Assembly: GCA_002785215.1 (NCBI GenBank)
Contig: PFMK01000083.1
Location: 1-38,150 of the forward strand
Direction: 5' to 3'
Source of the DNA: Candidatus Gottesmanbacteria bacterium CG_4_10_14_0_8_um_filter_37_24
Lineage (GTDB): Bacteria; Patescibacteriota; Microgenomatia; 2-02-FULL-39-11
Length of the DNA stretch: 38,150 bases
The position numbers and the translations under genes were made by a program. The notes beneath the pieces are model-generated. The model worked only from the letters and a program-made list of their open reading frames with translations. It was not told the DNA's origin and searched no databases. This document shows, one piece after another, positions 1,160-27,853 of the stretch (within the stretch, counting starts at the first letter, position 1; each line of letters begins with the position of its first letter).

Positions 1160-1236
1160 AAACTGTCAACCTATCTCTTTTTACGAAAAAGTGATAATAA
1201 TTCTAATTGTTTTACTTTGATTCTTGAGCTTCTCGT

Positions 1237-2445: not shown

Positions 2446-2461
2446 GATGTACTTTCTTCCA

Positions 2462-2574
2462 AACAATCAATAACCAATCACTAATCACTACCAACTACTA
2501 ACTATTTAACTATTAACCATCAACAATCAACCATTAACCATCAACTATGAACCATGAACTAATAACTAATTACC
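2462..2574. repeat. Degenerate AC/T-rich low-complexity tract (units like TAACCATCAAC), almost G-free on + strand
   Basis: Direct reading: ...aaccaatcactaatcactaccaactactaactatttaactattaaccatcaacaatcaaccattaaccatcaactatgaacc... Confidence 0.8.
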
Positions 2575-3816
2575 ATTCCCCCACTTTTCCAAAGCTTTAG
2601 CGAGTTCAAAATGGTTTTTGGCATATTCATCCAACCTTATTCCTTGGCTGACTGCTTCTCTTGCCTGTACTGCTGCTATTGCACCTTTATATGTCCCTTC
2701 CGGATGTCCGTGTATGCCTCCGCCAAAATTAATTAGAAGATCATTTCCCAGAATTTTTACCACATCCGGAAGATGACCGGGATGGAGACCTCCTGAAGCA
2801 ACGGGTAAAACCGTCTTTAATCCATACCATTCTGCCCTCAAAAAATTATCTATTTTCGTAACTTCCTCTTTACCCCCTTCCATCTTTCCCACTACAGTAC
2901 CGGTATGCAGGGAATCTACGCCGGCAAGACGAGAAAGTTTGGCCAGAACCAGCATGGAGATACCATACTGTTTTGACCTGGTAAAAGCGGCATGCATAGC
3001 CCTATGGGCATGTATCATTTTCCCGTAGTTTTTGTTCCTCATACCACACACTGCAGCAAAACCGGCTGTCAGGATATCAATCATATGACAGTTTCCTCCA
3101 TTTTCTACTACGAACTCTGCTCTTTTCTGCATTTCCTCATATGAAGCGGTAATATTATATGCGTAAATTTTCTCATTCCCTTTCCCTAAATAACCTTTTT
3201 CCTTCATACGGGTGGTACCTTCCCTTACCCTGTCATAAAAATTGTTATATATCTGGCTCGTCAGATTTTCATCATCTTTCACCAGATTCACTCCTCCGTC
3301 ATATACAGCCATAGCGGCATCAATATGATCTTTACTGGACAGACCCAATTTCGGCTTGATGATTGAACCAAGTAAAGGCATCTCCTTTACTCCAGCCATA
3401 TTTCTTACGCCTGTTATGCCTAAAGCAGGACCGGGAAAGGCTTTTATATATTCTTCCGGAAAATCAATGTCTTCCAATCTCAAAGCTGATATTTCCAGTA
3501 AACCGAAGATATTACCGGCTATCGAAGATAATAACTGGGGAATATTCCCTGCTTCAAACAAATCCAAAGGATAAGCAATTTTCAAAAAACCGGAAGATTC
3601 ATCTTTTTCTATCACTTTTGCATGTAAATTATCCCATGAAGTTTTTGTCTGTAAGAACACATCAGTCCAGGTACCGACTGATGACTCCGCTGCTACTCCT
3701 CCTGCTGTCCGGTCAAATGGCTGACCTTCTGATCCAAGATGAAAGCTGGCAAAAATATATTTATTTTTATCTAATTTTTCGCCTATCGAAAGATAGGTAT
3801 TATATGTATTCGGCAT
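2566..3816 (-). CDS. rbcL: Ribulose-bisphosphate carboxylase large subunit, form III-like
   Basis: AESSVGTW, GNIFGL, IIKPKLGL, GGVNLVKDDENL (carbamylated Lys motif), HTGTVVGKMEG, SGGLHPGH and NFGGGIHGHPEG are all present; SD AAAGGAG upstream of the ATG. Confidence 0.95.
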   Translation of the reverse strand: MPNTYNTYLSIGEKLDKNKYIFASFHLGSEGQPFDRTAGGVAAESSVGTWTDVFLQTKTSWDNLHAKVIEKDESSGFLKIAYPLDLFEAGNIPQLLSSIAGNIFGLLEISALRLEDIDFPEEYIKAFPGPALGITGVRNMAGVKEMPLLGSIIKPKLGLSSKDHIDAAMAVYDGGVNLVKDDENLTSQIYNNFYDRVREGTTRMKEKGYLGKGNEKIYAYNITASYEEMQKRAEFVVENGGNCHMIDILTAGFAAVCGMRNKNYGKMIHAHRAMHAAFTRSKQYGISMLVLAKLSRLAGVDSLHTGTVVGKMEGGKEEVTKIDNFLRAEWYGLKTVLPVASGGLHPGHLPDVVKILGNDLLINFGGGIHGHPEGTYKGAIAAVQAREAVSQGIRLDEYAKNHFELAKALEKWGNGN

Positions 3817-4723
3817 GAGTTTTCTCCTTTATAAAAGAATATAATAATGTTGCTAGACTATTTATTTTAGAACCCTTTATGATACCCTTCTCGCTGATTA
3901 TTTTTATATTTTCTGCATAAGGAATATAATCAAAGACCGGCGTATAAAATTTTAAACCTTTTGGCGCGCCGCTCCATATTTCTTTTCCAGATCTGAATTC
4001 TATTACTTGATAATCAAACGGACGAGGGTCGAACTTTAGAAGAATGCTGGTACAATATACGGGAACCTTAAGCTTCTTGGCGGTAAGACAAATACCTAAG
4101 GTTCCGATTTTATTCACAAAACCATTATAACTTAAAAGATCAGCACCCAAAAATATCGCATCAATCCGTGTCTTATGCACGGTCAATAATGAGGCTACGG
4201 CATCATCTATGATCAAACTAACATTTGTTAACCCTTCATCTAGTAATTCTTTCACTGTAATTCTACCCTGATATAACGGTCTTGTTTCTGTAGCGATAAC
4301 TGAAAATCTTTTCCCCATTTTCCATGCCTTTACAAACATGGAAACAACCGTGGATGAATGGCAATGCGTAAGATATATTCCTCCGTCATGAATCACTTCA
4401 ACTCCGGTATCTCCCATTTTTGCCTTGGCATCATAAATCATTTTTTCATAACAATCGCATCGTTCTAAATAAAAATCAGCATCTTTTGATTCTTTCTGAA
4501 AAATAAATCTGACGGCATTTTGGGCCAGAGGTTCGGTGGGTCTCGCATAAGCCAGCGCTTTGGCGACTTTATATAAGGTCTGGAAAACCGACTTGGTATT
4601 ATTATTTGCTCCTAGCCTGATACCGGCAAGGGTAGCTAAGGCTACGTTTGTAGCACCCTGAGTTCTTAATGTCTTTATGTCTTTTTCTATTTCTATTATT
4701 TTGTCCATAATATAACCATGCAT
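3800..4723 (-). CDS. Ribose-1,5-bisphosphate isomerase (aIF2B/e2b2 family)
   Basis: eIF-2B-like core (YLTHCHSSTVVSMF, TETRPLYQGRITVKELL, IDAIFLGADLLSYNGFVNKIGTLG); overlaps RuBisCO start by 17 nt. The ORF track starts at 4762 with TTG; ATG at 4723 with upstream GTAGGA is the more likely start. Confidence 0.88.
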   Translation of the reverse strand: MHGYIMDKIIEIEKDIKTLRTQGATNVALATLAGIRLGANNNTKSVFQTLYKVAKALAYARPTEPLAQNAVRFIFQKESKDADFYLERCDCYEKMIYDAKAKMGDTGVEVIHDGGIYLTHCHSSTVVSMFVKAWKMGKRFSVIATETRPLYQGRITVKELLDEGLTNVSLIIDDAVASLLTVHKTRIDAIFLGADLLSYNGFVNKIGTLGICLTAKKLKVPVYCTSILLKFDPRPFDYQVIEFRSGKEIWSGAPKGLKFYTPVFDYIPYAENIKIISEKGIIKGSKINSLATLLYSFIKEKTHAEYI

Positions 4724-4808
4724 ATTCAATCCTACAACCATAGGTAACACCACGTCAAACAATTTGCAATCTGAATAGTATCCGTCAAAGTTGGTATAAT
4801 AATTTCAT

Positions 4809-5588
4809 ATGGATGCAATTTGCATTAAGGGAATAAGTAAAAGTTTTGGTCAGTGCCATGCTGTTTCTGATGTGAATATTAGTATAAATGAGGGAAAAAT
4901 ATACGCTCTGATCGGGCCAAACGGGTCCGGTAAAACTACGCTTATTAAAATGATTACAGGACTCCTTATTCCGGACAGCGGAAAAGTTACTATTTATGAC
5001 TATGACATACAAAAAGAACCGGAAATGGCAAAAACCAAATTTGGTTACATTGCTGATGATCCATCCGTTTATGAATACTTAACCGGGATTGAATTCTTAT
5101 CTCTAACCGGAAGTTTAAGAGGTCTTCACCATCATGAAATTCATGATTATATCGATGAATTATCAGGTATTTTCCCGATAAAAGACATTCTTTACCAACC
5201 CATGGTCCAATATTCCCGAGGAAACAAACAAAAAGTAGCATTCCTGTCAGCTCTTTTGGCTAAACCTAAAATATTGATTATTGATGAACCTATTGTCGGG
5301 CTTGATCCAACCAGCATTAGTACTTTCGGTAAAACGCTGAGTAAATTTGCTAAAAAGGGAGGTTCTGTATTTATGGCCACTCACATCCTTTCTTTTGCCC
5401 AAGATTATGCAACTAGAGTCGGAGTTATGCAAAATGGGAAGATTGTAGATGAACGCCAGATTAAGAGTTCAACCCGTCTCGAGGAGCTTTACAATCTGGA
5501 TATACTGAAACAACCGAAGGAATGTTCCAGCATATACCCTTCTAAACTGATTCCGATTAAATCGGAATACAGTAAGAAGGGTATATAA
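4809..5588 (+). CDS. ABC transporter ATP-binding protein (ABC-2 type)
   Basis: GPNGSGKTT, YSRGNKQKV, ILIIDEPIVGLDP. Confidence 0.93.
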   Translation: MDAICIKGISKSFGQCHAVSDVNISINEGKIYALIGPNGSGKTTLIKMITGLLIPDSGKVTIYDYDIQKEPEMAKTKFGYIADDPSVYEYLTGIEFLSLTGSLRGLHHHEIHDYIDELSGIFPIKDILYQPMVQYSRGNKQKVAFLSALLAKPKILIIDEPIVGLDPTSISTFGKTLSKFAKKGGSVFMATHILSFAQDYATRVGVMQNGKIVDERQIKSSTRLEELYNLDILKQPKECSSIYPSKLIPIKSEYSKKGI

Positions 5589-5592
5589 AACA

Positions 5593-7215
5593 ATGAAAGG
5601 AATTATCACGCTCCTTTATTATGACTTCTTGGGACTTATAGCATGGTTTAAAACCCAGACTGCTAGTAAAGTTTTTATCCTTCTAGTATTTCTGGCCGTA
5701 TTATCCGGAGTATCTTTATCTATCTTTATAGCCTGCAAAACCTTTTTCTACAGTCTGTCTCTTTCAGAAAAATACGGCTTACTAACCGTAAAATACATCA
5801 TCCATGCAGCAATCGTAATCATCTCCTGGTTTGCATTGTCCACATCTACCATCTCAGTATATGGATTTCTAGTAAAATCAGACAAACAATTTGAGTTCCT
5901 TCTGTCTTATCCGATTAAAGCTTATCTTATACCTCTTTTTCTTTTCATCAAATCTACTTTTATGAATTCGCTGTTTGTCCTTATGATTTTCATACCTATC
6001 GGAATCGCTTACGTGAACATTTTTCAGACTGCGTCTTTCACTGGATTTATATTCAGATTCACTTTCACTCTGATTCTGCTTATTGTTCTTACCAACAGTA
6101 TTGCATCGGTAATAGGATACATACTGGCAAAATATATTAGACGTAAAGGTTACCTTGCCGGTATTCTGACAATGTCGATTTTTATGTTTATCATGCTTCT
6201 TATTGTAAATATCATTTTCCCGGAAGGAATAAATAAACTTTATACGGCAAATAACCATGATTTTATGGAAATTTATAACAACCTGCCATTATCCAACTCC
6301 TATCTCCCAACCTTCTGGATGACCGAAATAATCACACAAGGCATTAATATTTTCGGAATTTATCTTTCATTCCTTACAATTGCAATTCTGTTTACTTCGA
6401 TCCATTTCCAGAACAACAGGTTTCTTTCCGTTTTTCGTGATCTTTTATCCCATCCTTTCAGTTTAAGAAGCAGACATAAGGATTCCTATAATCCAACCGT
6501 TCAATTTCTCTGGAATAAATTACCGCTCGAATTCAAAGATTTGCTATCAATTACTCGTCTTCCTTCTGAAATAGGATATGCTTTCTTTTTAATCTCGATT
6601 GATCTCTTCTTTTATTTTCTTATTTCCCGGATCAGGGACGTAAACTATTTTCCCATCCAATTACAGTACGCTTTTATGCTTTTCGTATTTGCATGGCTTC
6701 AATTTATCAACATCGCTTTTCTTTTGAGGATTGTCTATCCGCTCATGGCTAAAGAAGGCCCGAATGCATGGTATATTTTCACATTGCCGATTTCTAAATT
6801 AAGAATTTTATTCTCAAAAATATGGCTGGCGCTAATTGTTTCCATACCCTTCCTCATTTTCACCTCTTTTGCTTGGATGATTGTTCCATTTAATAAATCT
6901 GATTACTGGCAATTCATAATCATCAGTATTATGTCATTTCTAACTATCGCTTTGGCAAATGTGCTTTTTGGAACAATTTTCCCGAATTTCTCCCAGGGAA
7001 AAGATCCGGAAAAAGTAAGTACCAGCGGGATGGGTATCGTAACATTATTTTTTTCCTTCCTAGTTATTATATTTTCTGGGTATTTAATTTTAGAACTGCA
7101 AAAGGGTTTGATTTCTATCTGTATGCTTTATCTTTTTCATCTTTTTTTCATTGTTGTAACTATCGCAAGTTTGTATCTAATCTCTGTAACGAATATGAAA
7201 AAATACCAGTTTTAG
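5593..7215 (+). CDS. Polytopic membrane protein, ABC-2-type permease partner
   Basis: Multiple hydrophobic helices; starts 5 nt after the upstream ATPase gene. Confidence 0.75.
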   Translation: MKGIITLLYYDFLGLIAWFKTQTASKVFILLVFLAVLSGVSLSIFIACKTFFYSLSLSEKYGLLTVKYIIHAAIVIISWFALSTSTISVYGFLVKSDKQFEFLLSYPIKAYLIPLFLFIKSTFMNSLFVLMIFIPIGIAYVNIFQTASFTGFIFRFTFTLILLIVLTNSIASVIGYILAKYIRRKGYLAGILTMSIFMFIMLLIVNIIFPEGINKLYTANNHDFMEIYNNLPLSNSYLPTFWMTEIITQGINIFGIYLSFLTIAILFTSIHFQNNRFLSVFRDLLSHPFSLRSRHKDSYNPTVQFLWNKLPLEFKDLLSITRLPSEIGYAFFLISIDLFFYFLISRIRDVNYFPIQLQYAFMLFVFAWLQFINIAFLLRIVYPLMAKEGPNAWYIFTLPISKLRILFSKIWLALIVSIPFLIFTSFAWMIVPFNKSDYWQFIIISIMSFLTIALANVLFGTIFPNFSQGKDPEKVSTSGMGIVTLFFSFLVIIFSGYLILELQKGLISICMLYLFHLFFIVVTIASLYLISVTNMKKYQF

Positions 7216-7373
7216 AGTAATATTTATCCGTCTTCGCAAAAAAACCACGAGTGCCCTTCTGTCTACTCAGGATGGTGAACCTGTTGAATCCACAAACCCG
7301 TAATGTATTTGAATTCAATATTATCTATGCTTGCTGTCATAAAATATTTTCTGTAAAATATAATTGAGAAGAT

Positions 7374-7476
7374 CAGGTTTTTTATATCGGGCCCTATAAG
7401 CATCCCGAGTTTCTCGGGAGGGACTTCCAACAAATTTATTACTATAGATTTGACGGTATAAAAACCTGTTTTTTTT
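7374..7476 (+). promoter_or_regulatory. Structured leader/attenuator-like element ending in T8 directly before the P-type ATPase ATG
   Basis: Closing stem CAGGTTTTTTATA (7374-7386) / TATAAAAACCTG (7457-7468), inner perfect hairpin CCCGAG-TTT-CTCGGG (7404-7418), then TTTTTTTT (7469-7476) and ATG at 7477. Confidence 0.55.
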
Positions 7477-10023
7477 ATGAAAGAAAATTATCAAGATATC
7501 ATTTCAGGTCTTTCTCAAAAAGAAGCATCCGAAAGGCTTAGAACAGACGGAGTTAACGAGCTTCCATCTCAAAAGAAACAAAACATCATTACTATTTTTC
7601 TTCGGGTAGTCTCTGAACCTATGCTGCTTCTGCTTATTGGAAGCGGTCTCATCTATCTTTTTCTTGGTGAAGTTAAGGATGCCTTAATGCTTCTGTCATT
7701 TATTTTTGTAGTAATTGGTATTACTTTTTATCAGGAGAGAAAGACCGAAAGAACTCTGGAGGCGTTAAGAAATCTATCAAGCCCAAGAGCTTTGATAATA
7801 AGAGATGGCGAAAGGAAAAGAATTCCGGGAAGAGAGGTGGTAAAAGGAGACATTATTATTCTACAGGAGGGCGACCGTGTTCCAGCTGATACTAAAGTCT
7901 TATCCTGCGAGAACTTATCAGTTGACGAATCACTCCTAACCGGAGAATCCATAGCTGTAAGAAAATCGTCATGGAACGGAAAAACCACGGATCAAAGACC
8001 GGGGGGAGATGATTTGCCTTTTGTCTACTCCGGATCTCTAATTGTAAGTGGAAGAGGTATGGCCCAAGTAATATATACCGGAGCTTATACCCAAATGGGC
8101 AAGATCGGAAAAGCTCTGGAGACGATAAAGGAGGAAGACACTTTACTTAAAAAAGAAACTGCAAAAATTGTAAAGGCTGTCAGTATTATTGGTTTATCGT
8201 TATGTATCCTAATCGTTCTGATTTATGGCTTAATAAAAGGTAATCTTTTACAGGGGTTTTTATCCGGACTGGCTTTGAGCATGGCGATACTTCCGGAAGA
8301 ATTTCCCGTTGTTCTTCTAATATTCTTGACCCTTGGTGCCTGGCGAATATCCAAAAGAAAAGTCCTGACCAGAAGATCGGCAGTGATAGAAACATTGGGA
8401 GCAGCTACAGTTCTATGTGTCGATAAGACAGGTACTCTTACTTTAAATCAGATGAAATTAACCTGTCTTTTTTCTAAAAATTCTTATTATGAATTAAGTG
8501 ATCTCGCCTCAACCTTACTTCCTGAAAAACATCATAATCTTTTGGAATATGGGATTTTGGCAAGTCAAAGAGATCCGTTTGATCCTGTCGAAAAAGAGAT
8601 CAAAAAAATGGGTGAACTATACCTTAAGAATACCGAACACATCCATATCAACTGGAATCTGGTAAAAGAATATCCTTTATCCAAAGAACTTTTGGCCCTT
8701 TCTCATGTCTGGCAATCTCCAGATAAGAAAGATTTTGTGATCGCGGCCAAAGGAGCTCCTGAAGCTATCCTTGATCTTTGCCATGCAGAAAAATCTATAA
8801 GAAAAAAGACATTAGACAGCGTAAAAGAGATGTCGGAAAGAGGTCTAAGAGTATTAGGTGTTGCTAAGGCATCTTTTTCAAAATCAGGCCTTCCCAAGAA
8901 GCAACATGACTATGATTTTGAATTTATCGGACTTTTTGGATTTATTGATCCCATACGCTCCACTGTACCTGATGCGGTAAAAGAAGCACATAATGCAGGT
9001 ATAAGGGTCGCTATGATTACAGGAGATTATCCGGGTACTGCTATATATATTGCCAGAAAGATTGGACTTGTTAATCCTGATAATTATCTTTCCGGAAGTG
9101 AGTTGTCAAAGCTCAATCACATGGAGCTTCGGGAAAAAATAAAAAATGTAAATATTTTTGCCAGAGTCGTACCAGAGCAGAAACTATTAATTGTGAACGC
9201 CTTTAAAGCAAATGGAGAGATCGTAGCTATGACTGGAGACGGAGTCAACGATGCTCCAGCTCTCAAATCAGCCAATATAGGCATCTCTATGGGCGAAAGA
9301 GGAACAGACGTGGCAAGAGAAGCATCATCCTTAGTCCTTTTAAACGACGATTTTTCCTCTATAATCGCTGCAATCCGTCTGGGTAGAAGAATTTATGACA
9401 ATCTCAAAAGAGCTATGGGTTATATTTTTGCAGTGCATATACCGATAGCCGGCATGTCTCTTCTTCCTGTGATTTTTAATCTTCCTCCTGTTCTTCTTCC
9501 AGCACATATAGCTTTTCTGGAACTTATCATAGATCCTGCCTGTTCAACGGTATTCGAATCGGAGAAAGAAGAAGATCATATTATGAAAAAGCCTCCCAGA
9601 AGTCTATATAAACCCATGTTTGACAGAAAAACAATAACTATAAGTATTTTGCAGGGATTAAGTATACTGATATCCGTTTTTCTTATTTATATTTATTATC
9701 TGTATGTGAACAAGAACGAAATGGGAGCAAGATCTATTACATTCACTACTCTTGTTATGGCAAACCTGATGCTTATAGCCACTAACCTTTCATGGAAGAA
9801 AAATATATTTCAAATAATCTCATCAGCTAATAAGGCATTACTTATCGTTTCAGTATTTGCAATTTTGGCTTTGTTGGTTGTTATATACATCCCATTTTTC
9901 GTAAACCTTTTCCATTTCACATATCTTAATCCGGTTGAATTATTGTTATCTTTTATTGCAGCATGCATAAGTATACTTTGGTTTGAAGCAGTGAAATTTA
10001 CAGGAAAAATTATCCGCAAATGA
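7477..10023 (+). CDS. Cation-translocating P-type ATPase (P2-like, HAD-IC) with PEEFP motif
   Basis: DKTGTLTLN phosphorylation site, [18 protein letters not shown]4 reads ILPEEFPVVLLIF. Confidence 0.93.
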   Translation: MKENYQDIISGLSQKEASERLRTDGVNELPSQKKQNIITIFLRVVSEPMLLLLIGSGLIYLFLGEVKDALMLLSFIFVVIGITFYQERKTERTLEALRNLSSPRALIIRDGERKRIPGREVVKGDIIILQEGDRVPADTKVLSCENLSVDESLLTGESIAVRKSSWNGKTTDQRPGGDDLPFVYSGSLIVSGRGMAQVIYTGAYTQMGKIGKALETIKEEDTLLKKETAKIVKAVSIIGLSLCILIVLIYGLIKGNLLQGFLSGLALSMAILPEEFPVVLLIFLTLGAWRISKRKVLTRRSAVIETLGAATVLCVDKTGTLTLNQMKLTCLFSKNSYYELSDLASTLLPEKHHNLLEYGILASQRDPFDPVEKEIKKMGELYLKNTEHIHINWNLVKEYPLSKELLALSHVWQSPDKKDFVIAAKGAPEAILDLCHAEKSIRKKTLDSVKEMSERGLRVLGVAKASFSKSGLPKKQHDYDFEFIGLFGFIDPIRSTVPDAVKEAHNAGIRVAMITGDYPGTAIYIARKIGLVNPDNYLSGSELSKLNHMELREKIKNVNIFARVVPEQKLLIVNAFKANGEIVAMTGDGVNDAPALKSANIGISMGERGTDVAREASSLVLLNDDFSSIIAAIRLGRRIYDNLKRAMGYIFAVHIPIAGMSLLPVIFNLPPVLLPAHIAFLELIIDPACSTVFESEKEEDHIMKKPPRSLYKPMFDRKTITISILQGLSILISVFLIYIYYLYVNKNEMGARSITFTTLVMANLMLIATNLSWKKNIFQIISSANKALLIVSVFAILALLVVIYIPFFVNLFHFTYLNPVELLLSFIAACISILWFEAVKFTGKIIRK

Positions 10024-12635: not shown

Positions 12636-15600
12636 TTATTTTACTACCAACCAACCACCTTCAGAATGCCCTGAGACATCAGGGATATACATCTGATACG
12701 CTTGAGCAGGAGGATGATGGTAGCGTCCGGGTGTAGTAGCTCTCACACGGTAGCTTATTTCATATACACCAGCGGGTAAGTAGTTAGCAAACAATGTCGT
12801 TCGGTCATCATGATATTCTTTATGCTCAAAATAAAGAAGTTGATTACCTTCTTCTTTTAAGATTGGTCTTTCTTTATTTAAAACACTGACATTTTTAAGA
12901 CTTTCATTTACTGATTCAAGGCCTGCTGGTAGAATGTCTTCGATAACCACAAAATGCCTTTCTTCAGGAGCAACGATAATAAGACGCACCCAACTTTCAG
13001 AATTTTCATTGATTGTATCAATCGGAAGTATATGTCCTTTACTATCTACAAACTCCCTTACAACAACCATTCCTTGTTCCAAAGGTTTAATTTCTGTGAA
13101 TGGTAGATAATATTTAAGATTGATGTTGTAATAGAGGTTACCTTCGCCACTTTTGGTAATCCTTAAATTACTTTCTCCCCCGATATTGAAGTCGGAAATG
13201 GATATTACATATTCCTGTAGTTTTAACAGATCATCTTTTGTAAACTTACCTTCCTTCAGTATTTTTCCATTAAGCTCAAGCCGATAATTTTCATTGACTT
13301 TCTGATCTCCTTTGCCCAGAAGCTGGGAAGAAATTGCCTTGATTACAGCAGCGGTATCACGGGTGGTTAACCAATGGTTATCGGTTCTTATAGACATCAG
13401 ATATCTTACTACTTCCGAAATAAGGGGGTTATTTTTGTCAAACCGGGTGATCGCTTCAAGGATACTTGCGGTGGCCGTAGTATTGCTACCCATGATACGA
13501 TAATCACTTTTAGGCTCTTCCCAGTGAGTTGTGGTAGCTGTTTTCTTACCAAGACTTATCAACTCAGCATAAAGCCGCTTTGCCTTACTGTCCATACCAG
13601 AAATATCTTTCATAGCTAATGCAAGATACGACCTTCCTTCTAAAGAGAGTTCAAAACGCCGGTCAAACAGATTAGAAGCATAAGAAGACAAATTCACATT
13701 TCTTTCTTTTAGAACATAAAGAATATATGCTTGAGTATATAGAGACAATTCTTTCCCACCTCTGGACAATTGACTCTCCAGATAGTTCTGTGCCCGTTTT
13801 AGAGTCTGATCAGCTACGGTAAAATTGTCCATTTTCGCTTCAGAGAGAGCTAAGAAGGCATATGCCGTCAGGAAGGTATCACTTTCATATTCAATCCACC
13901 AGCCCCAACCACCATCCGCATGTTGCTGGTTGTTCAGTCGTTGAATACCGTCGTTGATTACATCAACAAGTTGCTTTGTTTCAAGTAAACCGCTTTTATC
14001 GATTTTCGCATTTTGCAGAATTCTATGTACGAAAACTGCAGGCAAAAGCCTGCTGGTTATTTGTTCTGTGCAGTAATAAGGATAAGTTAAAAGATATGGT
14101 AGTGCGTTAATACTATCGCTGCCTAAAGAAGGTGAAAAACTTACACTCGCTGCGCCCTGCATTGGATCTAATTCCTTGGGTAATACGATTTCTTCAGAAG
14201 CGGTATCCTTTGCCTGACCTGATGTTGCTACCACTTCAGGAACGCTATATGACTTAATTGGCAAGGTCATTTCGACTGCATCTTGGGTAGTCTTATCTGC
14301 ACCTTCAACTACCAGTCTAATCTTAGCTGAGGCAACGTTGTTTGCCACTGTCACCCAAGTAAGTTTTTCTTGAGCTCCGTCGGCTAATACTAGCTGTTTT
14401 GATTTCTCATCAGTAATTTGTAAACCATCACTTTCAATTTTTGCTGTAAGAGTTTGTGTGTCCCCGCTTGTATTTACCACAATTGCACCCAATTTTGCTT
14501 CGTCCCCAATAGAAAGGAATCTGGGCAGGAAAGGTCTGATTAATACATCACGACTCACGGTAACCTCTGATACTTTTGAACCGAAAGCTGCTTCCTCCGA
14601 GTTGGCAATTGCTGCTAATCTCCATGTTGTAAGGTTGTCAGGAAGCGGAATTTCAACTTCTGCCTTACCCTCATTGTTGGTTTTATGAGTTGGATTCCAA
14701 TATGCAGTATCAGGAAAATCACTTCTGGAAGAATCGTTACCTCCTTTTTGGTTATGAACATAAATATTGCCCGCAAAATATGTTCGATATTTTTCGATTT
14801 CTAAGTTATATACTGCAAAATCTCCTCGGGTTTGTTCAATTGAAAACACTTTAATCAATTGGTTATTCCTATCCAGTAAATAATCGCCAACTTCAACTTC
14901 TCCTGCAATTATCCATTTTCTATTCACATATAACCTATGAACGGGAGTAACACGAAGCTCTCCGTTTATAATGAGGTATTGATCAACATCGTGTTTATAA
15001 GTCTTAGTTACCTTAGCTTCAATTAGTTTGGAAGAATTTTCACTTTCTCTGGTTAATACAACATCTCCAACCTTGACATCCTTAATGTTCCTATATATTC
15101 CGCCTTGCATTAAAATTGGAGTATCTCCTGTAAAGCATCCGCCTCCGCTTCCACCTTTTGCTCCAAGATTTGTGTTTGCATTTATCCGATCAATCGAGAT
15201 GGTTAAAAGCTGAGAGGTCGAAACCTCAAGATTTCTGGGTTGGTAGAAGGTCTTATAAATATCAGGCAATTCAATATTCGATAGATCCCATACTGCCCTA
15301 TCAACCAGACCGACTGCCAGTTCGGTAGAGATGGGATGACCCAATAAGTCTTTTGTTTCTATAGTCGCTTTTAGAGTATCCTTCGGTTTATATTTTTTCT
15401 TGTCCGTTGTAATTCGAACGTCAATTTGCTGCTTTTTATCCGTAACCTTTATCTCTGTATAGCCCATCTTAAATTCCACTGGTTTTTTAACCTGATTACC
15501 ACCTTTTACTAAAACTGCTCCGATGAATGCGTTAGGTGTGTATTTTGGAGGGACAGACATGGTGAAATTGTTAGAGGAATCGCTGGTATCAACAATTTTA

Positions 15601-18600
15601 TAGTCCAGAACACTTCCTCTTTCTACGGTAAGCAGTGTTTTTGCTGAATCGGAAGCAAATGGAGAAGCAACGAAAACAGAAAGATTCTCTCCAACCAGAT
15701 AGTCACGCTTATCGGTAACCAGGACAATACGATCATTATTCTCTCTTACCGTTGAGAAGCCATAACCCGAAACCCATAAAAAACTGCCGCTGGTGTTTTG
15801 ATTCCCATCCTTGTCTGTTACCTTCCCGATAACTTTATAAGTTCCTCCTTCTTGCGGGGTGAAAGAGGCGATTCCCCGTCCTAAAGAGTCTGTAGTAACT
15901 ACCATGCTTGTTACAAGAGAATCGCTGGGTTTGCTGGTGTAATAGAATATCCCATCGTCAGGATTTTTTTCTCGAACCGTTTCCCAGGTTCTTTTATAAA
16001 ATTCAATAGAAACAGGTGTATTTGGAATTTCGCTGCCCTTCAAATCAACTGTAACCATCTCGACTCTAGCTTCTTTACCAGACTGGTTAGCATAACTTAC
16101 AGGTCTAAGTCCTACATATAATCCGCCTTTATGCACTGTAAATTCTTGCGAAGCGGCAATTGATTGATTGTTAATATCATTTACTGTTGCTTCTACAAGC
16201 ATCCTTTGGCTTGTCACCTGTTTGCTTATATCAAGCGGGATAGTAAGTTCCAGATCACCTTTAACATTGGTTTTTCCTTTCCCTTCCGTAACTTTCTTCC
16301 CGGAAAAATAACTATATCCTGAATAATTCCACCAAGGTCGCGACCAATAAGAATCTGAGTCTCCAAATTCAAACCTCCAATCCTTATCCCATCGGAAAGA
16401 ATAATCTTGAGTTTGAAGCACCCAGGTTACGGGGGCATTTGTAACCGGTGCACCAAAATAATAAGAAGCATTAATGACAATATCTGCACTGTTTCCTTGA
16501 ATATATGCATCCTTTGATGGTTTTACGCTTACTGCAAGATCCGGCTTTTTGTATTCCTCTACCTGGAACTGTTGTGAGTATGAATTACCCTGAAAAGTGG
16601 ACCCCACTTGGTAATAGCCTAAATTTGCGTCTTTGCTTAAAACAAAATCCCCGGAAAATGAACCAAAGGTAGTTAGGGGTAGATCCTGCATATATACAGA
16701 CCTGTTTTGTGCATCACTTATGTTTACTTTCACCCTCTCCCCTGGTTGAAGATTCTCGTAAGCTCCGTCGTTATCTTTCTTTATTATTCCTTTAAAATAA
16801 ACTTTCTGCCCCGGCCTGTAGATTGGACGATCTAGTGTAAGAAAAAGCTTATAGTCTTGTTTTGAATAATAGTCTTTAGATTCGTTAGCGTTGTAATAGC
16901 TTGGTAAACCAAAATCATAGCGGTTAATTCCCTGACTCCAGGCACTGGCGGCAACCACAAAATCTTCATCTTTTTGACCAAAAACAAACAAGTTATTCTT
17001 TTGGAATATATCCACATCCTTCATATACACACCGTCTTTATTCGAATCTCCCTCACTTAATAAATTTCCTGAACTGTCTGTTAACTGCATTTTCATTCCT
17101 GAAACTACACTTCCTGTTGATTGATTTACTGCCCAGGAGAAGATTTGTTTGTCGCTTTTTTTAACAGTCAAAGCGGACTTGCTTACAATCATAACCATGT
17201 TATCGTGAACTCCTTGCGAAATTCGCATGTCGAGGAAGTAAAATCCGGGAGGTAATTTTCTTCCCATATCTGTGGTTATTTTAGTAATTACATGGACAGG
17301 AGTATTGAAATCTGCATCATATGTCTCGCTCCATAAACGAACTTTTTCGAGCTTGCTGGTATCATAACTTTGCCAGTTACGACAGGATTCATTATAAGAA
17401 CATTGTTCTTCATAACGCCTGCGATAAAGATCAAGAAGATCCTCTCTTTTTAACTTGTAAAGCGAATAGTCAACTTTATTGGCGTTAATTACTTGAGCGA
17501 CAATGCGTGGGATTACCTCTTGATTAAATGCTCCAAAATATGTGCCGGACGGATAAATACTTACCGACGGTTTATAAGCTGCGGTTGTGAAACTGAACGA
17601 ATAAGGACTACCTAGTGAAACTCCGTACTGATCTTTCACTCCAGAACTTATTGTGATCGTGTACGTTTTTGATCTTCCCAGGAATGTACTTACCGAAAGA
17701 GAATTACGGGAATTATAACTGTCAAAATATAAAGATGGTTTGGTATCTGGTTTAGGGTCAATAATCACGTTATCCTCGAAAGACTTTATTTCCATTGGTG
17801 TCTTAAATAAGACTTCCATTCTGTATTGCTCCGAGATATCCTTATCTCCATTTGCGGGAGTCGAACTTATTACTGCCGGTATAGCAGCAACTCCAAAAGT
17901 CCATGAGTACTCTGTTTCCATTCCGTTCGTGCCTTCAGTGCTTTGAACACCTTGAGAAATAATGGCAGTATAATGTTCTTCTCTTTTTAAAGGTTCGGAT
18001 GAGTAAAATCCTACTACATTTCCAGATACGGCCACGCGCCCTGGGACTTTATATTTATTCTTATCCAAGAGTGTAAATTTATCGGCAATTGACTGTGGAT
18101 TAATATTTTGATTAAAAGTCGCGGACACCGAAGCGATTGGAGAAGCATAATTATAATCTCTTTTGGGACTTATATCATCAAGACGCGGGCGTTCGCTGGA
18201 AAATTCCCAAGTATATTCTTCCTTAAGCACGCCTTCATCTTGAGAGCGTAATCCAGACGGTACTGTTATTTTGTATGTTGTTGCTCTTCTGAACCGTTCA
18301 GAGGGTCTGAATTGATAAGCGGTTGTTCCAAGCCATCTGCCTTCACCCTCTATCTTGGGACTTACAGAAAATGCTGGTTGTCTGATAGCGCTATTTGTAG
18401 CCGTGGTGAGAGCGATCATCGGACGATCAAAAACGACTGTAATAGGTGTTAAATCTTCAAGCGCTTCGTTTTGAGGAGAGGAAAGAACAACTTTCGGGTT
18501 GCCAATTGTTTCAAAGGAAATTGTTTTATTGCCGGTAAGAGGTATTAATAATTTGGATAAGACAATTCCGTTAAAAGCCACTTTATAACTATTTGCTCGA

Positions 18601-19061
18601 TTGAGTTTGCCTTGAGGTGTAAAAATCAGCTTCTGATCGCTTTCCCAATTAAAACTACCCTGAACACTTGGAGTTATGCTGAAGCTTTTTTCTGCTAAGA
18701 ATTTAATGACTCCTTTATTAAAAATTATTTCAATTTTGGTATCAAGGGGTGCTTCGGTACTTTGATTTCCCGGAAAGCTTGTGGCAATTTTTGGAGGAAC
18801 GAAAAGATATCCAAACTTCACAACTAAAATTGACGCAATGAGGATAAATAATGGTTTCCATATCATTGCTAAGCGCTCTTTATCAGAAGAAAGTTTAAAT
18901 CTTACCGTCCATTCGGATATGAATTTGCGTAACCTGTCGAAATTTTGCGTGAAATAAAACTGTAAAACTAGCATTTTTTTCTGTATAGAGAGGCCAAAAT
19001 TACCGGGGAATTTTAATCGAGCGGAGATAATCTTAATTAAATTACTCATATCAATGATCAT
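12636..19061 (-). CDS. Bacterial alpha-2-macroglobulin-like protein (YfhM type) with embedded Hint/intein-like domain
   Basis: N-terminal membrane anchor, MG domains, RPGQKVYFKG, bait region, FPDTAYWNPTHKTNNEGKAEVEIPLPDNLTTWRL, thioester motif CTEQ (14061-14072), TED helices; adjacent to PBP1C. Confidence 0.93.
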   Translation of the reverse strand: MIIDMSNLIKIISARLKFPGNFGLSIQKKMLVLQFYFTQNFDRLRKFISEWTVRFKLSSDKERLAMIWKPLFILIASILVVKFGYLFVPPKIATSFPGNQSTEAPLDTKIEIIFNKGVIKFLAEKSFSITPSVQGSFNWESDQKLIFTPQGKLNRANSYKVAFNGIVLSKLLIPLTGNKTISFETIGNPKVVLSSPQNEALEDLTPITVVFDRPMIALTTATNSAIRQPAFSVSPKIEGEGRWLGTTAYQFRPSERFRRATTYKITVPSGLRSQDEGVLKEEYTWEFSSERPRLDDISPKRDYNYASPIASVSATFNQNINPQSIADKFTLLDKNKYKVPGRVAVSGNVVGFYSSEPLKREEHYTAIISQGVQSTEGTNGMETEYSWTFGVAAIPAVISSTPANGDKDISEQYRMEVLFKTPMEIKSFEDNVIIDPKPDTKPSLYFDSYNSRNSLSVSTFLGRSKTYTITISSGVKDQYGVSLGSPYSFSFTTAAYKPSVSIYPSGTYFGAFNQEVIPRIVAQVINANKVDYSLYKLKREDLLDLYRRRYEEQCSYNESCRNWQSYDTSKLEKVRLWSETYDADFNTPVHVITKITTDMGRKLPPGFYFLDMRISQGVHDNMVMIVSKSALTVKKSDKQIFSWAVNQSTGSVVSGMKMQLTDSSGNLLSEGDSNKDGVYMKDVDIFQKNNLFVFGQKDEDFVVAASAWSQGINRYDFGLPSYYNANESKDYYSKQDYKLFLTLDRPIYRPGQKVYFKGIIKKDNDGAYENLQPGERVKVNISDAQNRSVYMQDLPLTTFGSFSGDFVLSKDANLGYYQVGSTFQGNSYSQQFQVEEYKKPDLAVSVKPSKDAYIQGNSADIVINASYYFGAPVTNAPVTWVLQTQDYSFRWDKDWRFEFGDSDSYWSRPWWNYSGYSYFSGKKVTEGKGKTNVKGDLELTIPLDISKQVTSQRMLVEATVNDINNQSIAASQEFTVHKGGLYVGLRPVSYANQSGKEARVEMVTVDLKGSEIPNTPVSIEFYKRTWETVREKNPDDGIFYYTSKPSDSLVTSMVVTTDSLGRGIASFTPQEGGTYKVIGKVTDKDGNQNTSGSFLWVSGYGFSTVRENNDRIVLVTDKRDYLVGENLSVFVASPFASDSAKTLLTVERGSVLDYKIVDTSDSSNNFTMSVPPKYTPNAFIGAVLVKGGNQVKKPVEFKMGYTEIKVTDKKQQIDVRITTDKKKYKPKDTLKATIETKDLLGHPISTELAVGLVDRAVWDLSNIELPDIYKTFYQPRNLEVSTSQLLTISIDRINANTNLGAKGGSGGGCFTGDTPILMQGGIYRNIKDVKVGDVVLTRESENSSKLIEAKVTKTYKHDVDQYLIINGELRVTPVHRLYVNRKWIIAGEVEVGDYLLDRNNQLIKVFSIEQTRGDFAVYNLEIEKYRTYFAGNIYVHNQKGGNDSSRSDFPDTAYWNPTHKTNNEGKAEVEIPLPDNLTTWRLAAIANSEEAAFGSKVSEVTVSRDVLIRPFLPRFLSIGDEAKLGAIVVNTSGDTQTLTAKIESDGLQITDEKSKQLVLADGAQEKLTWVTVANNVASAKIRLVVEGADKTTQDAVEMTLPIKSYSVPEVVATSGQAKDTASEEIVLPKELDPMQGAASVSFSPSLGSDSINALPYLLTYPYYCTEQITSRLLPAVFVHRILQNAKIDKSGLLETKQLVDVINDGIQRLNNQQHADGGWGWWIEYESDTFLTAYAFLALSEAKMDNFTVADQTLKRAQNYLESQLSRGGKELSLYTQAYILYVLKERNVNLSSYASNLFDRRFELSLEGRSYLALAMKDISGMDSKAKRLYAELISLGKKTATTTHWEEPKSDYRIMGSNTTATASILEAITRFDKNNPLISEVVRYLMSIRTDNHWLTTRDTAAVIKAISSQLLGKGDQKVNENYRLELNGKILKEGKFTKDDLLKLQEYVISISDFNIGGESNLRITKSGEGNLYYNINLKYYLPFTEIKPLEQGMVVVREFVDSKGHILPIDTINENSESWVRLIIVAPEERHFVVIEDILPAGLESVNESLKNVSVLNKERPILKEEGNQLLYFEHKEYHDDRTTLFANYLPAGVYEISYRVRATTPGRYHHPPAQAYQMYIPDVSGHSEGGWLVVK
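14751..15137 (-). other. Hint (intein/hedgehog-like) domain within the alpha-2-macroglobulin, residues 1309-1437
   Basis: Starts CFTGDTPILMQGG...VGDVVL, middle block RVTPVHRLYV, C-terminal block VYNLEIEKYRTYFAGNIYVHN followed by Q; flanked by GGSGGG and QKGGND. Confidence 0.88.
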
Positions 19062-19116: not shown

Positions 19117-21576
19117 TCAATTACTACTGTCTTCTTTATATCCTACAACAGAAAAGGTTATTTCATCACTCTTAACCCGTTCGTTGTTTTCAGTCATCCC
19201 ATAAGCCGCTATAGTATGTTTACCCACTTGGGGTTTCCATGACGCGCTGTAGGGAAAGTCCTCTGCTTCCTTAAAAAGTTTCCCGTCCAAATACCAAAAC
19301 ACCTTATTAATACTCTGTGAGATATTTACCTCAAAAACTATTCTTTCATTATTTACCAAAAGCGGTGCGGATTCAAAAACGGTTTTTTCTTTCGGGTAGG
19401 TAATCTCCAAATAAATTTTACCTGAAAGTTGCTGACTATTGTTACAAAGAGGTGATGATTGCCGAGGAATGACTTCTTGACGGTTTTGTATCGCCCAGGT
19501 ATAAACTTCAGGAGGATAGTCAATAAACACCTTTTCTTCAACAAAGTTTTTCGGGCAAGAATCATCTGCTAACAAGCCGTTTCTATTATCAATCAGGACT
19601 TTTTTGTGTAATTTAGATACTTCCTTTGGCTCCGAACCCTCAACGAAAAGTTCATTGGTTTTTTCAGGACAAAGTTCATCTGGAAGACTTCCCGACATTG
19701 CGCATATTTCCACTTCCTTTATCCGTTCCGGACGAATAAACACTTCAATTGGATAGCCTTTTAAAAATTCCTCAAAAAATTGGTTCCAAATTGGTGCTGC
19801 CCCTACCACTCCTGAAATTTCCCGCATCGGATGGTTGTCATTGTTTCCAACCCAAACTCCAACTGTATAACTGGGAGTATAGCCGACAGTCCAGTTATCA
19901 TGCCAATCGGTCGTTGTTCCTGTTTTTACGGAAGCGGGGTGGGAAAGAACAAGAGGATTTTTCTCGCCAAACGCCGGAATACGGGCTTTGGGATCGGATA
20001 AGATATTGGAAATGAGATAAGCCACCTGTTTTCCATTTTGACCCAAGACTTGCGTTCCTTGATTGTCATGATGTGTATATAAGTTCTTACCATCGTCGGC
20101 AACTATCTTTTGGATTGTGTAAGGTTCTTTATACTCACCTCCTCTGGCAAAACTTGCAAATACGTTGGTCAGCTCAAGTAGCTTTATTTCTCCTCCTCCC
20201 AAAGTCAGGGCTAAATCATATCTGTCTTCCTGGGTAAAAGTAGTAATCCCTAAATCTCTGGCAACTTTCAAAAAATTATTAATTCCGATTCTATCCAGCA
20301 TTTCCACGGCTGGTAAGTTAAGAGAGGATGCGAGAGCTTCCCGAGCCAATACTAAACCGTGGTATCTGCCATCATAATTGTTAGGAGTAAAACCCTCACC
20401 TTTTTTGGTTTGATAAATTTTTATTACATCATAAATCAATGTCGCAGGAGTGTATCCTTCCCTAAAAGCTGTTGCATAGGTAACAGGTTTTAACGCCGAA
20501 CCAGGCTGCCTTAAAGCGGTTGCCATATTAACCTGCCCGGAACGAGAAGCATCGAAATAATCAATTCCTCCAAGCATGTCAATAATTTCTCCAGAATCAT
20601 TCCTGATAAGAACAATAGAAGCATTGCTTAAATCATGCTGATTTTTCAATCTGTCCACCCATATTTTGGCGATGTTCTCGCTTAGATTAAATGTAGGATA
20701 ATCAAGCGTCGTATAGATATTTAGACCTTGGTTATTATTAATTCCCAGTGCAAATAGTTCTTGTAAGACATAATGAACAAAATGAGGAGCCTTTATGTCT
20801 GACTTTTTTGTGGAAATCGCGAGTTCTTCTAGTTTTGCCTCTTCGGCTTTTTCTTTTGAAATAAATCCATGCTTCATCATTAAATCCAATACTTGTATTT
20901 GTCCCTTTTTTACTTCATCCCTACTTGAAAAGGGGTTGCGTTTGTCCGGCGAGGAAAGCAAACCAACCAGAAAAGCACTTTCTGCAAGCGATAGCTGGCT
21001 GATATCCTTATCAAAATAGGTTGACGATGCTGCCTGTATCCCATACGCCAAATTGCCAAAATACATCTGGTTGAAATACATGGTCAGGATATCTTTCTTT
21101 GAATATGAAGCTGTTATCCTTAAGGCTATAAAAATCTCCCTTATTTTTCTGACAATACTTCTGGAAGGTATCTTTTTATGGGAAATTATTGCAGTTCTGG
21201 TCAACTGTTGTGTAATCGTGCTTGCTCCGGAAACGATCCTTCCTTCTTTTATGTTTATTAACAATGATCTGGCAATTGCTCTTAAATCCACTCCTGGATT
21301 AGTCCAAAATGTAATATCTTCGGAAGCAACGGCTGCGTTTATGAGATAGACTGGCAGGTCGTTATAGGTAATTGGCATCTTTTTACCCACCTCGCCAGCA
21401 GATTCATAAAGAAGAGTGTGGTTCCTATCCCATATTTTGACAGTTCCAGACTGATTGATCTTGGGCTGTGTCCACCAGATAAATAAAGCAAGGGAAATAA
21501 ATAGGATCGAAATTATGATAGGCTTTCTTATTTTCCGGATTGTAGGATTAAATAGTTTTTTGATTTTAGGATACAC
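19117..21576 (-). CDS. pbpC: Penicillin-binding protein 1C
   Basis: Transglycosylase EDITFWTNPGVDLRAIARSL and GASTITQQLTR; transpeptidase RQPGSALKPVTYA, SSLNLPA, KTGTTTDWHDNWTVGYTP; C-terminal Ig-like extension. Confidence 0.94.
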   Translation of the reverse strand: MYPKIKKLFNPTIRKIRKPIIISILFISLALFIWWTQPKINQSGTVKIWDRNHTLLYESAGEVGKKMPITYNDLPVYLINAAVASEDITFWTNPGVDLRAIARSLLINIKEGRIVSGASTITQQLTRTAIISHKKIPSRSIVRKIREIFIALRITASYSKKDILTMYFNQMYFGNLAYGIQAASSTYFDKDISQLSLAESAFLVGLLSSPDKRNPFSSRDEVKKGQIQVLDLMMKHGFISKEKAEEAKLEELAISTKKSDIKAPHFVHYVLQELFALGINNNQGLNIYTTLDYPTFNLSENIAKIWVDRLKNQHDLSNASIVLIRNDSGEIIDMLGGIDYFDASRSGQVNMATALRQPGSALKPVTYATAFREGYTPATLIYDVIKIYQTKKGEGFTPNNYDGRYHGLVLAREALASSLNLPAVEMLDRIGINNFLKVARDLGITTFTQEDRYDLALTLGGGEIKLLELTNVFASFARGGEYKEPYTIQKIVADDGKNLYTHHDNQGTQVLGQNGKQVAYLISNILSDPKARIPAFGEKNPLVLSHPASVKTGTTTDWHDNWTVGYTPSYTVGVWVGNNDNHPMREISGVVGAAPIWNQFFEEFLKGYPIEVFIRPERIKEVEICAMSGSLPDELCPEKTNELFVEGSEPKEVSKLHKKVLIDNRNGLLADDSCPKNFVEEKVFIDYPPEVYTWAIQNRQEVIPRQSSPLCNNSQQLSGKIYLEITYPKEKTVFESAPLLVNNERIVFEVNISQSINKVFWYLDGKLFKEAEDFPYSASWKPQVGKHTIAAYGMTENNERVKSDEITFSVVGYKEDSSN

Positions 21577-24444: not shown

Positions 24445-27400
24445 TTAATTTATCAATTTAAAACTGCTGTTAACAAAATGAAATTTGTCCAGTGTGGAAT
24501 CTGTTTTAGGTAATATATCTGCAACAATAACATCATTCCCAAAGAAATTACTAATTCTGTCTCCGGGATCTTTGAATATCTTTTTTTCTTTCATCATCTC
24601 CGCCTCATCGCTACCAATATATACAGGTATATATGTCTTTCCTGATATATAAATAGAATTGAATCCATCTTCTCTTAACACGTTTTTATACTGGGTAGGT
24701 ATATTGGAATCTGAAATGTAATAGAAGACTTTATCTCCTTCTGCCTCACTAATTACTTTTATATCATCCTTGTATATGGATAAATCATTGTTCAATGTCC
24801 GGATTGAGGAAGGTTTGCTACTTTCCTTCATTTCTTTTCCCTCTGCTACCATGGAACTGCTGAATCTACCAAACTCGAAGAAGAAAAAGGTAAAGAAAAG
24901 CATCATGGCAATTGGCGCAAACATAGAGATATAATTTCTTCTCCCTGGCCTAAAATACCGGAGAAGAAGGGAGTTGGAAACAACTGATATGGATGAAAAA
25001 GCCATAGCAAGACCTGCTAGTTCCGGCTTTAATACCAACCCCAGTGAAATTAATGCTCTGGCGGCAATGGGAATTCCGATGACATTGTAAAAGAGGGCAA
25101 AAAACATATTTTGCTTGATCTTGCCCATAGTTTCTTTTGACAGATCAAAAGCCGTAACCACGTCTCTTAAGTCATTTTTCATGATAACTATTCCTCCTGC
25201 TTCCATAGCTACATCTGTACCATTACCCATAGCAACACCAATATCAGCTTGAGCCAAGGCCGGCGCATCATTAATCCCATCTCCAACCATGGCTACTCTC
25301 TTACCCATCCCTTGGATCTTTTTCACCTCACTTGCCTTATCTTCCGGTAGTACTTCGGCAAGCACGTTGTCGATCCCAACCTCACGGGCTATAGCTTCTG
25401 CTGTTCTTCTGTTATCACCTGTAATCATATAAACTTCAATTCCCCGTTTCTTCAATTTTGCAACCGCTTCTTTAGATGTTTCTTTCACGGTATCAGCAAC
25501 TGCCACAATTCCCAAAATTTCTTTATCATTTGACAAAATCATGGCGGTTTTACCCTGTTCTTCCAATCTTCCCAGTTTCCTATCAACAATATCTATAGGA
25601 AGTCCGACAACTTCAGAAATCAACTTCCTATTACCAAAGTAGTACTTTTGACTATCTATTTCAGCTGTAACACCGTGCCCAGCGATCGCTTTAAAGTTTT
25701 GCGTGTCTTTTAATGTAGCTAATTCCTCTTTGGCATAATTGTAAATTGCTTCAGCCAAAGGATGTTCTGAGGACTTTTCAAGGCTCGCTGACAAAGAAAG
25801 AACACTATTATCGTTCAAACTTCCTATACCAACAATATCTGTCACAACCGGTTTTCCGTTTGTTAAAGTACCAGTTTTATCAAAAACAACTGTGTTTACT
25901 TTGCAGGCAGATTCCAAAGGTTCTCCTCCTTTTATAAGTACACCGTATTCAGCCCCTTTTCCTGTACCAACCATAAGAGCGGTGGGTGTAGCAAGTCCTA
26001 CAGCACATGGACAAGCTATAACAATAACCGATGTAAATGCCATAAGGGCAAACGCAAGTGTTGCACCTAACACAAAATACCAGATAATAAAGGTGAGTAA
26101 TGCAATCCCTATAACTATCGGTACAAACCAGGCTGATATCTTATCCGCAAATGCTTGGATAGGTGCTTTGGACCCTTGAGCTTCTTCAATCAGTCTTATT
26201 ATTTGGGCTAAAGTTGTCTCTGAACCAACACGGGTTGCCACAAACTCAAAACTACCCATTTTGTTCATTGTTGCACCAACTACAGTATCTCCCTCATGTT
26301 TTTCAACGGGAATACTTTCTCCTGTTAACATGGACTCATCTACACTTGATGAACCTTTGATAATTTTTCCGTCAATGGGAACTTTTTCTCCGGGACGGAC
26401 CAATATAATATCGCCTGCCTTTACTTCATTAATTGGGATATCCATCGTCTGGCCGTCTTTAACGACTCTGGCTGTTTTGGCCGCCAAACCCATCAGTTTT
26501 TTAATGGCATCGGATGTTCTGCCCTTTGCCCGAATTTCAAGCCATTTCCCAAGAATAACAAAAGTAATCAGAAAGGCGGCAGTTTCAAAATATAATTCCG
26601 GTATTTTTGCTCCATTTATACCGATAAGAGATCCTGTCTTTAAAAAATAATATACTAAATTGATAAGAGAGTAGAAATAGGCTGTGGATGTACCGATTGC
26701 AATCAAACTATCCATATTGAAAGTCTTCATCCTAAGGGCTGACCACATGCCTTTATAAAACCTGAGTCCGATAATAAATTGGACCGGTGTCGACAACAAT
26801 AAGGAAATTATTCCTATAAAAGGTGTTAACATTACTTTTCCGGGTATCCATGAGATGAAATCAAAGAGCATAAAATAAAGCATGGGGAAAGAGAGAATAA
26901 GACTGTTTATGAACGCTTCTGATAATCCTTTTATCTCCTTTTCCCTCTTTTTCCTATCAAACTCAGGATCATTGTTTTTCACCTCTGAGGCTAAGTAACC
27001 GGCTTTTTTTACAGCATTAATCAAACTATCAACTGTTACGATGTTGCCATCATAAAAAACCAAGGCTTTTTCTGCGGCAAAATTGACATTTGCTTTGGAA
27101 ACGCCTGTAACCTTCTTTAGCGACTTTTCAATAAGTGCAGCACATGATGAACAATGCATACCCGAGAGTGACAGATTTATTCTTTGCTGACTATTTGCTG
27201 TTAACGTATTTGTCTTTTCTTCCTTAATTGGAAGGCTATTTTGGGGTATTTCTGAGGTTGTGTTTGGTGTTACATCGTCACTATCGTTACGGTTTGTGGA
27301 AAACTCCACTCTGTCAAACAGTTTTACTATGTCAATTGAGGATATCAGCTCTTGCAGGAAGTTTTTAGAACCCACCTGTCCTTGTGGAATTGATAATTTG

Positions 27401-27798
27401 GCATTCTTATTATTTTTAACAATACCATCAAAATACGGTTTACCACCGGCATCTTGGGAAATTCTTCCTTCTGCGACTACTTCAGACTCAATCGTAATTT
27501 TGAAAGGCTTATTTGACGCAGTAATTTCTTGTTGAAATAGTACTTCGCTCTCATGAGTTGATTTTCCATACCCATTTCCGTTTGCTTCGATCACTGCCTG
27601 ATAACCGGCACGTTTAACAGCATTGATCAGTTCATCAAGTTGTATATTTTCTTTTTCTAAATGAAGTAATGCTTTGCCGGTTTTATGATCAATTCTTTCT
27701 ACTTTAACTCCGGAAATTTCTGATAACTCTTCTTTAATGAGTGTTTCACATGAATCGCAATGCATTCCCGAGATAGTGAGGTTAACGTTTTTTATCAT
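24445..27798 (-). CDS. copA: Cu+-exporting P1B-type ATPase (CopA-like) with two HMA domains and an extra C-terminal region
   Basis: GMHCDSC and GMHCSSC HMA motifs, [49 protein letters not shown]. Confidence 0.95.
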
Positions 27799-27843: not shown

Positions 27844-27853
27844 AATATTACTC

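Follow-up and report, generated by a model that had tools for sequence, protein, structure and literature searches.

The window, a stretch of 38,150 nucleotides from contig PFMK01000083.1 of Candidatus Gottesmanbacteria bacterium CG_4_10_14_0_8_um_filter_37_24, encodes on its minus strand (12636–19061) a bacterial alpha-2-macroglobulin (A2M) of 2141 residues, recognized from the open reading frame and its Pfam domains. A folded Hint domain of 129 residues, similar to the type-A bacterial intein-like (BIL) domains, is located at the bait position of this protein (residues 1309–1437; 14751–15137, minus strand). Hint domains and A2Ms are each known; their combination, its fixed place at the A2M trigger and its recurrence are absent from the papers searched. 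The domain probably stands in place of the protease-sensitive bait and cleaves this region autocatalytically to give a two-chain A2M, with or without firing of the thioester. We infer the reaction, its timing and its effect from the observations below. No description of a BIL or Hint domain paired with a macroglobulin was found in the literature searched, most subscription journals being outside its scope.

The Hint domain and its position

The minus-strand translation of 14751–15137 reads CFTGDTPILM...VYNLEIEKYRTYFAGNIYVHN, exactly the 129 residues quoted in the original prediction of a complete Hint module, and the plus-strand reading of this interval is full of stops. The hidden Markov model search suggested with that prediction finds PT-HINT over residues 1323–1437, above the Pfam cut-off, with E values of 7e-12 for the whole protein and 1e-13 for the domain alone. 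The best sequence match in the Protein Data Bank is the C. thermocellum BIL domain (2lwy), with an E value of 1.2e-9 (5e-18 with a 29-member profile). An AlphaFold2 model of the domain, built from 29 relatives, has a mean pLDDT of 97.3. Its top Foldseek matches are Tetrahymena BIL2 (6tmm/6y75) and 2lwy, with a TM score of 0.90, followed by inteins and the hedgehog Hint domain. The complete module and its Hint fold are borne out by the profile, the sequence match and the model.

The domain begins with Cys1309 (Cys1 of the Hint domain; 15135–15137, on the minus strand like all other features of this gene), the predicted nucleophile of an N–S acyl shift. Block B, Thr-Pro-Val-His at residues 1372–1375 (14937–14948), contains Thr64 and His67 of the domain, and His1436-Asn1437 (14751–14756) is the predicted site of Asn cyclization. 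These assignments are made from the sequence and its relatives. The Gly-rich linker GGSGGG (residues 1303–1308; 15138–15155) precedes the domain and is disordered in the model, and Gln-Lys-Gly (residues 1438–1440, +1 to +3; 14742–14750) follows it. Block B, the terminal His-Asn, the Gln at +1 and the Gly-rich flanks are thus all present as originally described. The Hint fold, the N-terminal Cys, the T-x-x-H of block B, the C-terminal His-Asn and the lack of Cys, Ser or Thr at +1 are the features of a type-A BIL domain. A homing endonuclease is excluded by size, as had also been argued, with 129 residues leaving no room for one.

The Hint domain is confirmed to occupy the bait position, between the LNK/A2M_BRD half and the R-x-x-F plug, because it is preceded by A2M_BRD (residues 1114–1259; 15285–15722), the upstream half of the bait-containing region, and followed by the A2M domain PF00207 (residues 1452–1538; 14448–14708). 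This agrees with the placement first proposed, directly ahead of FPDTAYW. Arg-Ser-Asp-Phe at residues 1446–1449 (14715–14726) is the equivalent of the Arg/Phe plug of the A2M superfamily (α′NT / BR-C). The solved Salmonella and E. coli A2M structures align to the 2141-residue protein with E values down to 3e-40, and the aligned blocks bracket the bait, running up to residue 1276 (chain residue 917) and resuming at residue 1461 (chain residue 972). In a 459-residue model (residues 1094–1552), of moderate confidence (pLDDT 78.6, pTM 0.50), the Hint domain is well ordered, with a disordered linker on either side (model residues 188–213 and 347–357, pLDDT <50), amid the strands of the bait-carrying MG domain. 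The Foldseek matches of this model are bacterial A2Ms, complement factors and BIL domains. In place of a disordered bait, a folded Hint domain with short disordered Gly-rich linkers stands here. The same site holds the anaphylatoxin domain in complement C3, C4 and C5.

A pretoxin HINT domain of a polymorphic toxin was rejected as an identity, as the A2M, TED and bMG10 domains follow the Hint domain and no toxin domain does.

Recurrence, conservation and empty sites

The survey of related A2Ms covered a class-wide sample of 382 genomes (Microgenomates-type) and phylum-wide samples of 381 and 364 genomes. An A2M domain is present in 49 of the 382 class-sample genomes, and 29 of these 49 have a Hint domain inside the A2M. 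In the phylum-wide samples, 45 genomes have an A2M domain and 18 have a Hint domain within it. The named records of a separate scan include Gottesmanbacteria, Daviesbacteria, Shapirobacteria, Woesebacteria and other Microgenomates. The insertion recurs in 46 sequences, as the survey proposed at the outset was meant to reveal; the same architecture in this many independent sequences from many genomes rejects chance or an assembly artefact. Beyond the original prediction, Hint-bearing A2Ms are widespread in Patescibacteria, a non-nucleophilic +1 residue is a rule (46 of 46), and the empty bait is poly-Gly.

Over the 46 A2M-borne Hint domains, Thr64, His67, His128 and Asn129 are invariant (46/46), as is Cys1 in the 45 sequences that include it (the remaining one is truncated where its contig stops), while identity as a whole drops to 40% relative to the window domain. 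In every pair tested, the Hint domain shows much less nonsynonymous than synonymous change, to the same degree as the A2M around it; synonymous divergence is saturated in most pairs. It had been considered that close homologues might show this segment to be a conserved MG subdomain that does not cleave. Instead, the close homologues are without the segment altogether, and every homologue that bears it retains all of the catalytic residues. The domain could also be an inert spacer, folded but unreactive, presenting a large exposed bait or cap with linkers that outside proteases cut. In complement, an insert without catalytic activity, the anaphylatoxin domain, occupies this position (PMC9156758), and the linkers around the Hint domain are predicted to be disordered. 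We nevertheless regard a spacer as very improbable, since full invariance of the five catalytic residues at such low overall identity is hard to explain without catalysis.

The residue at +1 is Gln in 16 sequences, Asp in 13, Glu in 11, Ala in 4, and Lys and Asn in one each; Cys, Ser or Thr is found in 0 of 46. With Gln1438 at this position, a canonical class 1 intein was rejected. The host site is also wrong for such an intein, which would be expected in a conserved site of a housekeeping protein; here the insertion is in a variable loop, the bait, and the protein is of secreted type. In the class set, Gly is found at −1 in 29/29, Lys at +2 in 30/30 and Gly at +3 in 30/30. Lys-Gly follows the +1 residue in nearly all A2M-Hints, and an R-x-x-[F/L/Y] motif is located 3 to 9 residues past the Asn of the Hint domain in 46/46.

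These flanks bear on the possibility that the Gly-Gly-Gly thioester made by the Hint domain is a second warhead. Attack by an amine (of Lys +2, a target protein, the cell wall or a lipid) would then attach the anchored N-terminal half covalently. The closest fold match, Tetrahymena BIL2, forms isopeptide bonds to lysine (PMC8616854). Lys is located at +2 or +3 in 45 of the 46 sequences and at +1 in the remaining one, is no feature of the listed Hint-less baits, and Gly is constant at −1 in the 29 sequences of the class set. Outside the A2Ms, however, most Hint domains in these genomes likewise carry Lys at +1 or +2, so that Lys may be a general trait of the family, and conjugation of this kind seems quite improbable. 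A combined version, also rather unlikely, would have the Hint domain provide the A2M with a second, bait-borne thioester. The domain would then both cut the bait and pass on the Gly-Gly-Gly end of the anchored half to a lysine, which may be the nearly invariant Lys +2, in an isopeptide splicing like that of Tetrahymena BIL2, or one in a captured protein. Such a thioester, if real, would make this A2M a self-triggered conjugating protease trap or a surface-attachment system.

The closest orthologues of the window A2M (L014 and L015, 72–85% identical) have no Hint domain. Their empty sites, GGSGGGGGGGFDTARSNFPDTAYW in L014 and GGSGGGGGGGNDTSRRDFPDTAYW in L015, are opposite GGSGGG and the Hint domain of the window, where the bait reads GGSGGG-Hint-QKGGNDSSRSDFPDTAYW. 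Nearly all Hint-less A2Ms of the class have a short poly-Gly loop at this site. One genome (G169) holds both kinds, a Hint-bearing and a Hint-less A2M (L091, L146).

Natural poly-Gly baits, in which some 5 to 12 Gly follow one another, are frequent among Hint-less Patescibacteria A2Ms (L014, L015, L134–L150). They resemble 'tabula rasa', the bait that was engineered into human A2M to be protease-proof. Hint domains on Gly-rich linkers are also found elsewhere. In a genome of the same family as that of the window (G010), a separate open reading frame region (L019, positions 1–7001 of G010:C5) has tandem Hint domains on such linkers (VHNKGGGGCFLP...VHNKGGGGFGGGG), and the A2M of this genome is without Hint. 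Two adjacent Omnitrophota proteins (L034, 3841–9892, plus strand) each have a Hint domain behind a Gly-rich linker, almost at the C-terminus. They were rejected as a further case, as these Hint domains terminate non-A2M proteins.

On a 46-row tree of the A2M core, the presence of the Hint domain requires 8 changes, at least 6 of which are forced by well-supported branches. The A2M Hint domains cluster together (SH-aLRT 94), apart from the other Hint domains of the same genomes, with one exception, L070. This locus (7111–9072, plus strand) encodes a 654-residue fn3/Glucodextran_B protein, the sole non-A2M host within the group, and the A2M of its genome (G138) is without Hint. When A2M subfamilies are compared, the cores are 17–28% identical and the Hint domains 44–47% on average. 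For example, the window and L016 are 60% identical in the Hint domain and 20% in the core; the values for L080 are 51% and 47%. The ratio of patristic distances, Hint over core, is 0.6–1.3 within subfamilies, about equal divergence, and 0.28–0.61 between them, where the Hint domain is far less diverged. With about 20% identity the core is almost saturated, which weakens the quantitative case, and a column bootstrap of single Hint-versus-core comparisons is suggestive (P 0.05–0.13). Because the Hint domains of distant subfamilies stay far more alike than the cores, these comparisons favor sideways movement of the domain from one bait site to another, along with recurrent loss or gain, and strict vertical inheritance within A2M is disfavored. 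A search of plasmids with the Hint domain gave matches of about 33% identity, and the annotated ones are polymorphic-toxin HINT proteins.

The patchy presence, with at least 6 gains or losses, and the sideways spread look like those of a mobile element. The Hint domain could then remove itself by splicing through amine attack, in which the freed α-amine of the C-terminal part attacks the Gly-thioester and a short Gly-rich bait (GGSGGG-QKGGND) is restored, so that the element is nearly neutral. This route is known for type-A BILs (PMC4031507), and its predicted product is similar to what the empty sites read, GGSGGGGGGGFDT and GGSGGGGGGGNDT. On the other hand, selection on an element that must splice would favor Cys, Ser or Thr at +1, which none of the 46 has; published BILs yield predominantly cleavage products; and the 129 residues include no endonuclease. 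Splicing is therefore judged unlikely.

Predicted cleavage of the bait

The reading we prefer is self-cleavage of the bait. After folding, Cys1309 would attack the carbonyl of Gly1308 to form a labile Gly-thioester, and Asn1437 would cyclize, cutting ahead of Gln1438. The predicted scissile bonds are thus Gly1308-Cys1309 and Asn1437-Gln1438. As there is no Cys, Ser or Thr at +1, the standard branched intermediate would be impossible, and cleavage at one or both junctions should dominate. According to published work, BILs have no +1 nucleophile, and cleavage at the N- and C-terminal junctions prevails over splicing by amine attack, a minor outcome (PMC7664689, PMC4031507). The product would be a two-chain A2M with a C-terminal chain that begins 8 residues ahead of the R-x-x-F plug. 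Furin and convertase give C3, C4 and C5 this topology by cutting around the anaphylatoxin domain. The interpretation given with the original prediction, in which self-cleavage was preferred over normal splicing, is supported.

In the A2M superfamily, bait cleavage lets the Arg/Phe plug (α′NT / BR-C) retract, which leads to the conformational change (PMC9352918, PMC9156758). The cut at Asn1437-Gln1438 would release the plug-bearing segment. Since plug release is a known trigger, self-cleavage may activate the A2M and its thioester (Cys-Thr-Glu-Gln, residues 1664–1667; 14061–14072) without an outside protease, or pre-nick the A2M for later release.

Several points weigh against this reading. In two Hint-bearing clades with a fully covered thioester domain, nearly all members retain CxEQ, which would be wasteful if constitutive cleavage fired the thioester at once. 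Two further clades have the Hint domain and no CxEQ, so that thioester status is clade-bound and independent of the Hint domain. Some splicing is also possible for type-A BILs that have no +1 nucleophile (PMC4031507). Firing of the thioester as the sole purpose of the Hint domain was rejected for this independence. Because CxEQ does not track the Hint domain, the shared role should be bait cleavage or the two-chain topology as such, and firing of the thioester may follow from it in addition.

Human A2M with a Gly-Ser bait folds, keeps its thioester and is cut by 0 of 12 proteases (PMC8267569). Poly-Gly loops are thus expected to be poor baits for ordinary proteases and to need another cutter, and the Hint domain may supply the missing cut in baits of this type. 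A self-cutting Hint domain may also explain why Patescibacteria have poly-Gly baits, which ordinary proteases should not cut.

In the literature covered, all A2M-superfamily proteins with a described mechanism, complement included, depend for their activation on a cut in the bait or anaphylatoxin region by an outside protease. The paper on Vampirococcus reports A2Ms in a predator of the candidate phyla radiation (CPR) and makes no mention of Hint (PMC8080830). A self-cutting domain at the bait would make activation intrinsic and uncoupled from protease capture, and the trap may be set off, or mature, through chemistry of its own, not awaiting an enemy enzyme. Bacteria and animals would have independently filled the bait slot with a folded domain that can be released. 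Hint domains would gain a specific physiological role, tied to a single site of a single protein family.

The host protein and comparison with known systems

The Pfam domains of the 2141-residue protein are, in order, Big_5 (four copies), bMG3, MG2, bMG5/bMG6, A2M_BRD, PT-HINT, A2M, TED and bMG10, with the bMG3 and bMG5 matches scoring under the Pfam cut-offs. TED_complement covers residues 1652–1768 and bMG10 residues 1997–2128, and a hydrophobic N-terminal anchor was read by eye at residues ~66–88 (within 12636–19061). The gene for penicillin-binding protein 1C, pbpC (19117–21576, minus strand; TIGR02073 above its cut-off), is located 55 bp upstream. It is the classical partner of A2M, as in the yfhM-pbpC pair, and also adjoins the A2M at L014, L015, L066, L068, L069, L075 and L135. 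With MG2, A2M_BRD, A2M, TED with CxEQ, bMG10 and the pbpC neighbor, the product of 12636–19061 is a YfhM-type bacterial A2M.

The A2M-pbpC pair is adjoined by a cluster of redox or metal genes (24445–33574, minus strand), which include two heavy-metal P-type ATPases and a CopZ-like protein fused to a membrane domain. Elsewhere in the window, a type III RuBisCO-like gene (2566–3816, minus strand) is next to a ribose-1,5-bisphosphate-isomerase-like gene (3800–4762, minus strand), both under those equivalog cut-offs. This pair resembles the AMP-salvage pair known from CPR bacteria.

The window Hint domain shares with the type-A BILs of C. thermocellum (2lwy) and Tetrahymena BUBL1 (BIL2, 6tmm/6y75) the fold (TM score 0.90), Cys1, T-x-x-H, His-Asn, the lack of a +1 nucleophile and of an endonuclease, and its short length. 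It differs in its A2M host, its fixed bait site in many species and its conserved x-Lys-Gly C-flank, and is known here from sequence and models. PT-HINT of the polymorphic toxins is its best Pfam family, above the cut-off; unlike those domains, it precedes the other half of an A2M and not a toxin domain.

The A2M itself is similar to YfhM, ECAM and Salmonella A2M in domain order, CxEQ thioester, membrane-anchored N-terminus and pbpC neighbor. The protease-cleavable bait of ECAM is the disordered segment Arg923-Leu942 (PMC4498604); in comparison, the window A2M has a predicted self-processing domain as its bait, and extra Big_5 domains. Complement C3, C4 and C5 have a folded domain, the anaphylatoxin domain, in place of the bait, with LNK on one side and the R-x-x-F plug on the other, and this domain is made to be released by cleavage (PMC9352918, PMC9156758). 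The Hint domain of the window A2M takes the same place and is likewise predicted to be cut free. Furin and convertase make the cuts in complement, whereas the insert in the window, of independent origin, carries its own predicted cutting chemistry.
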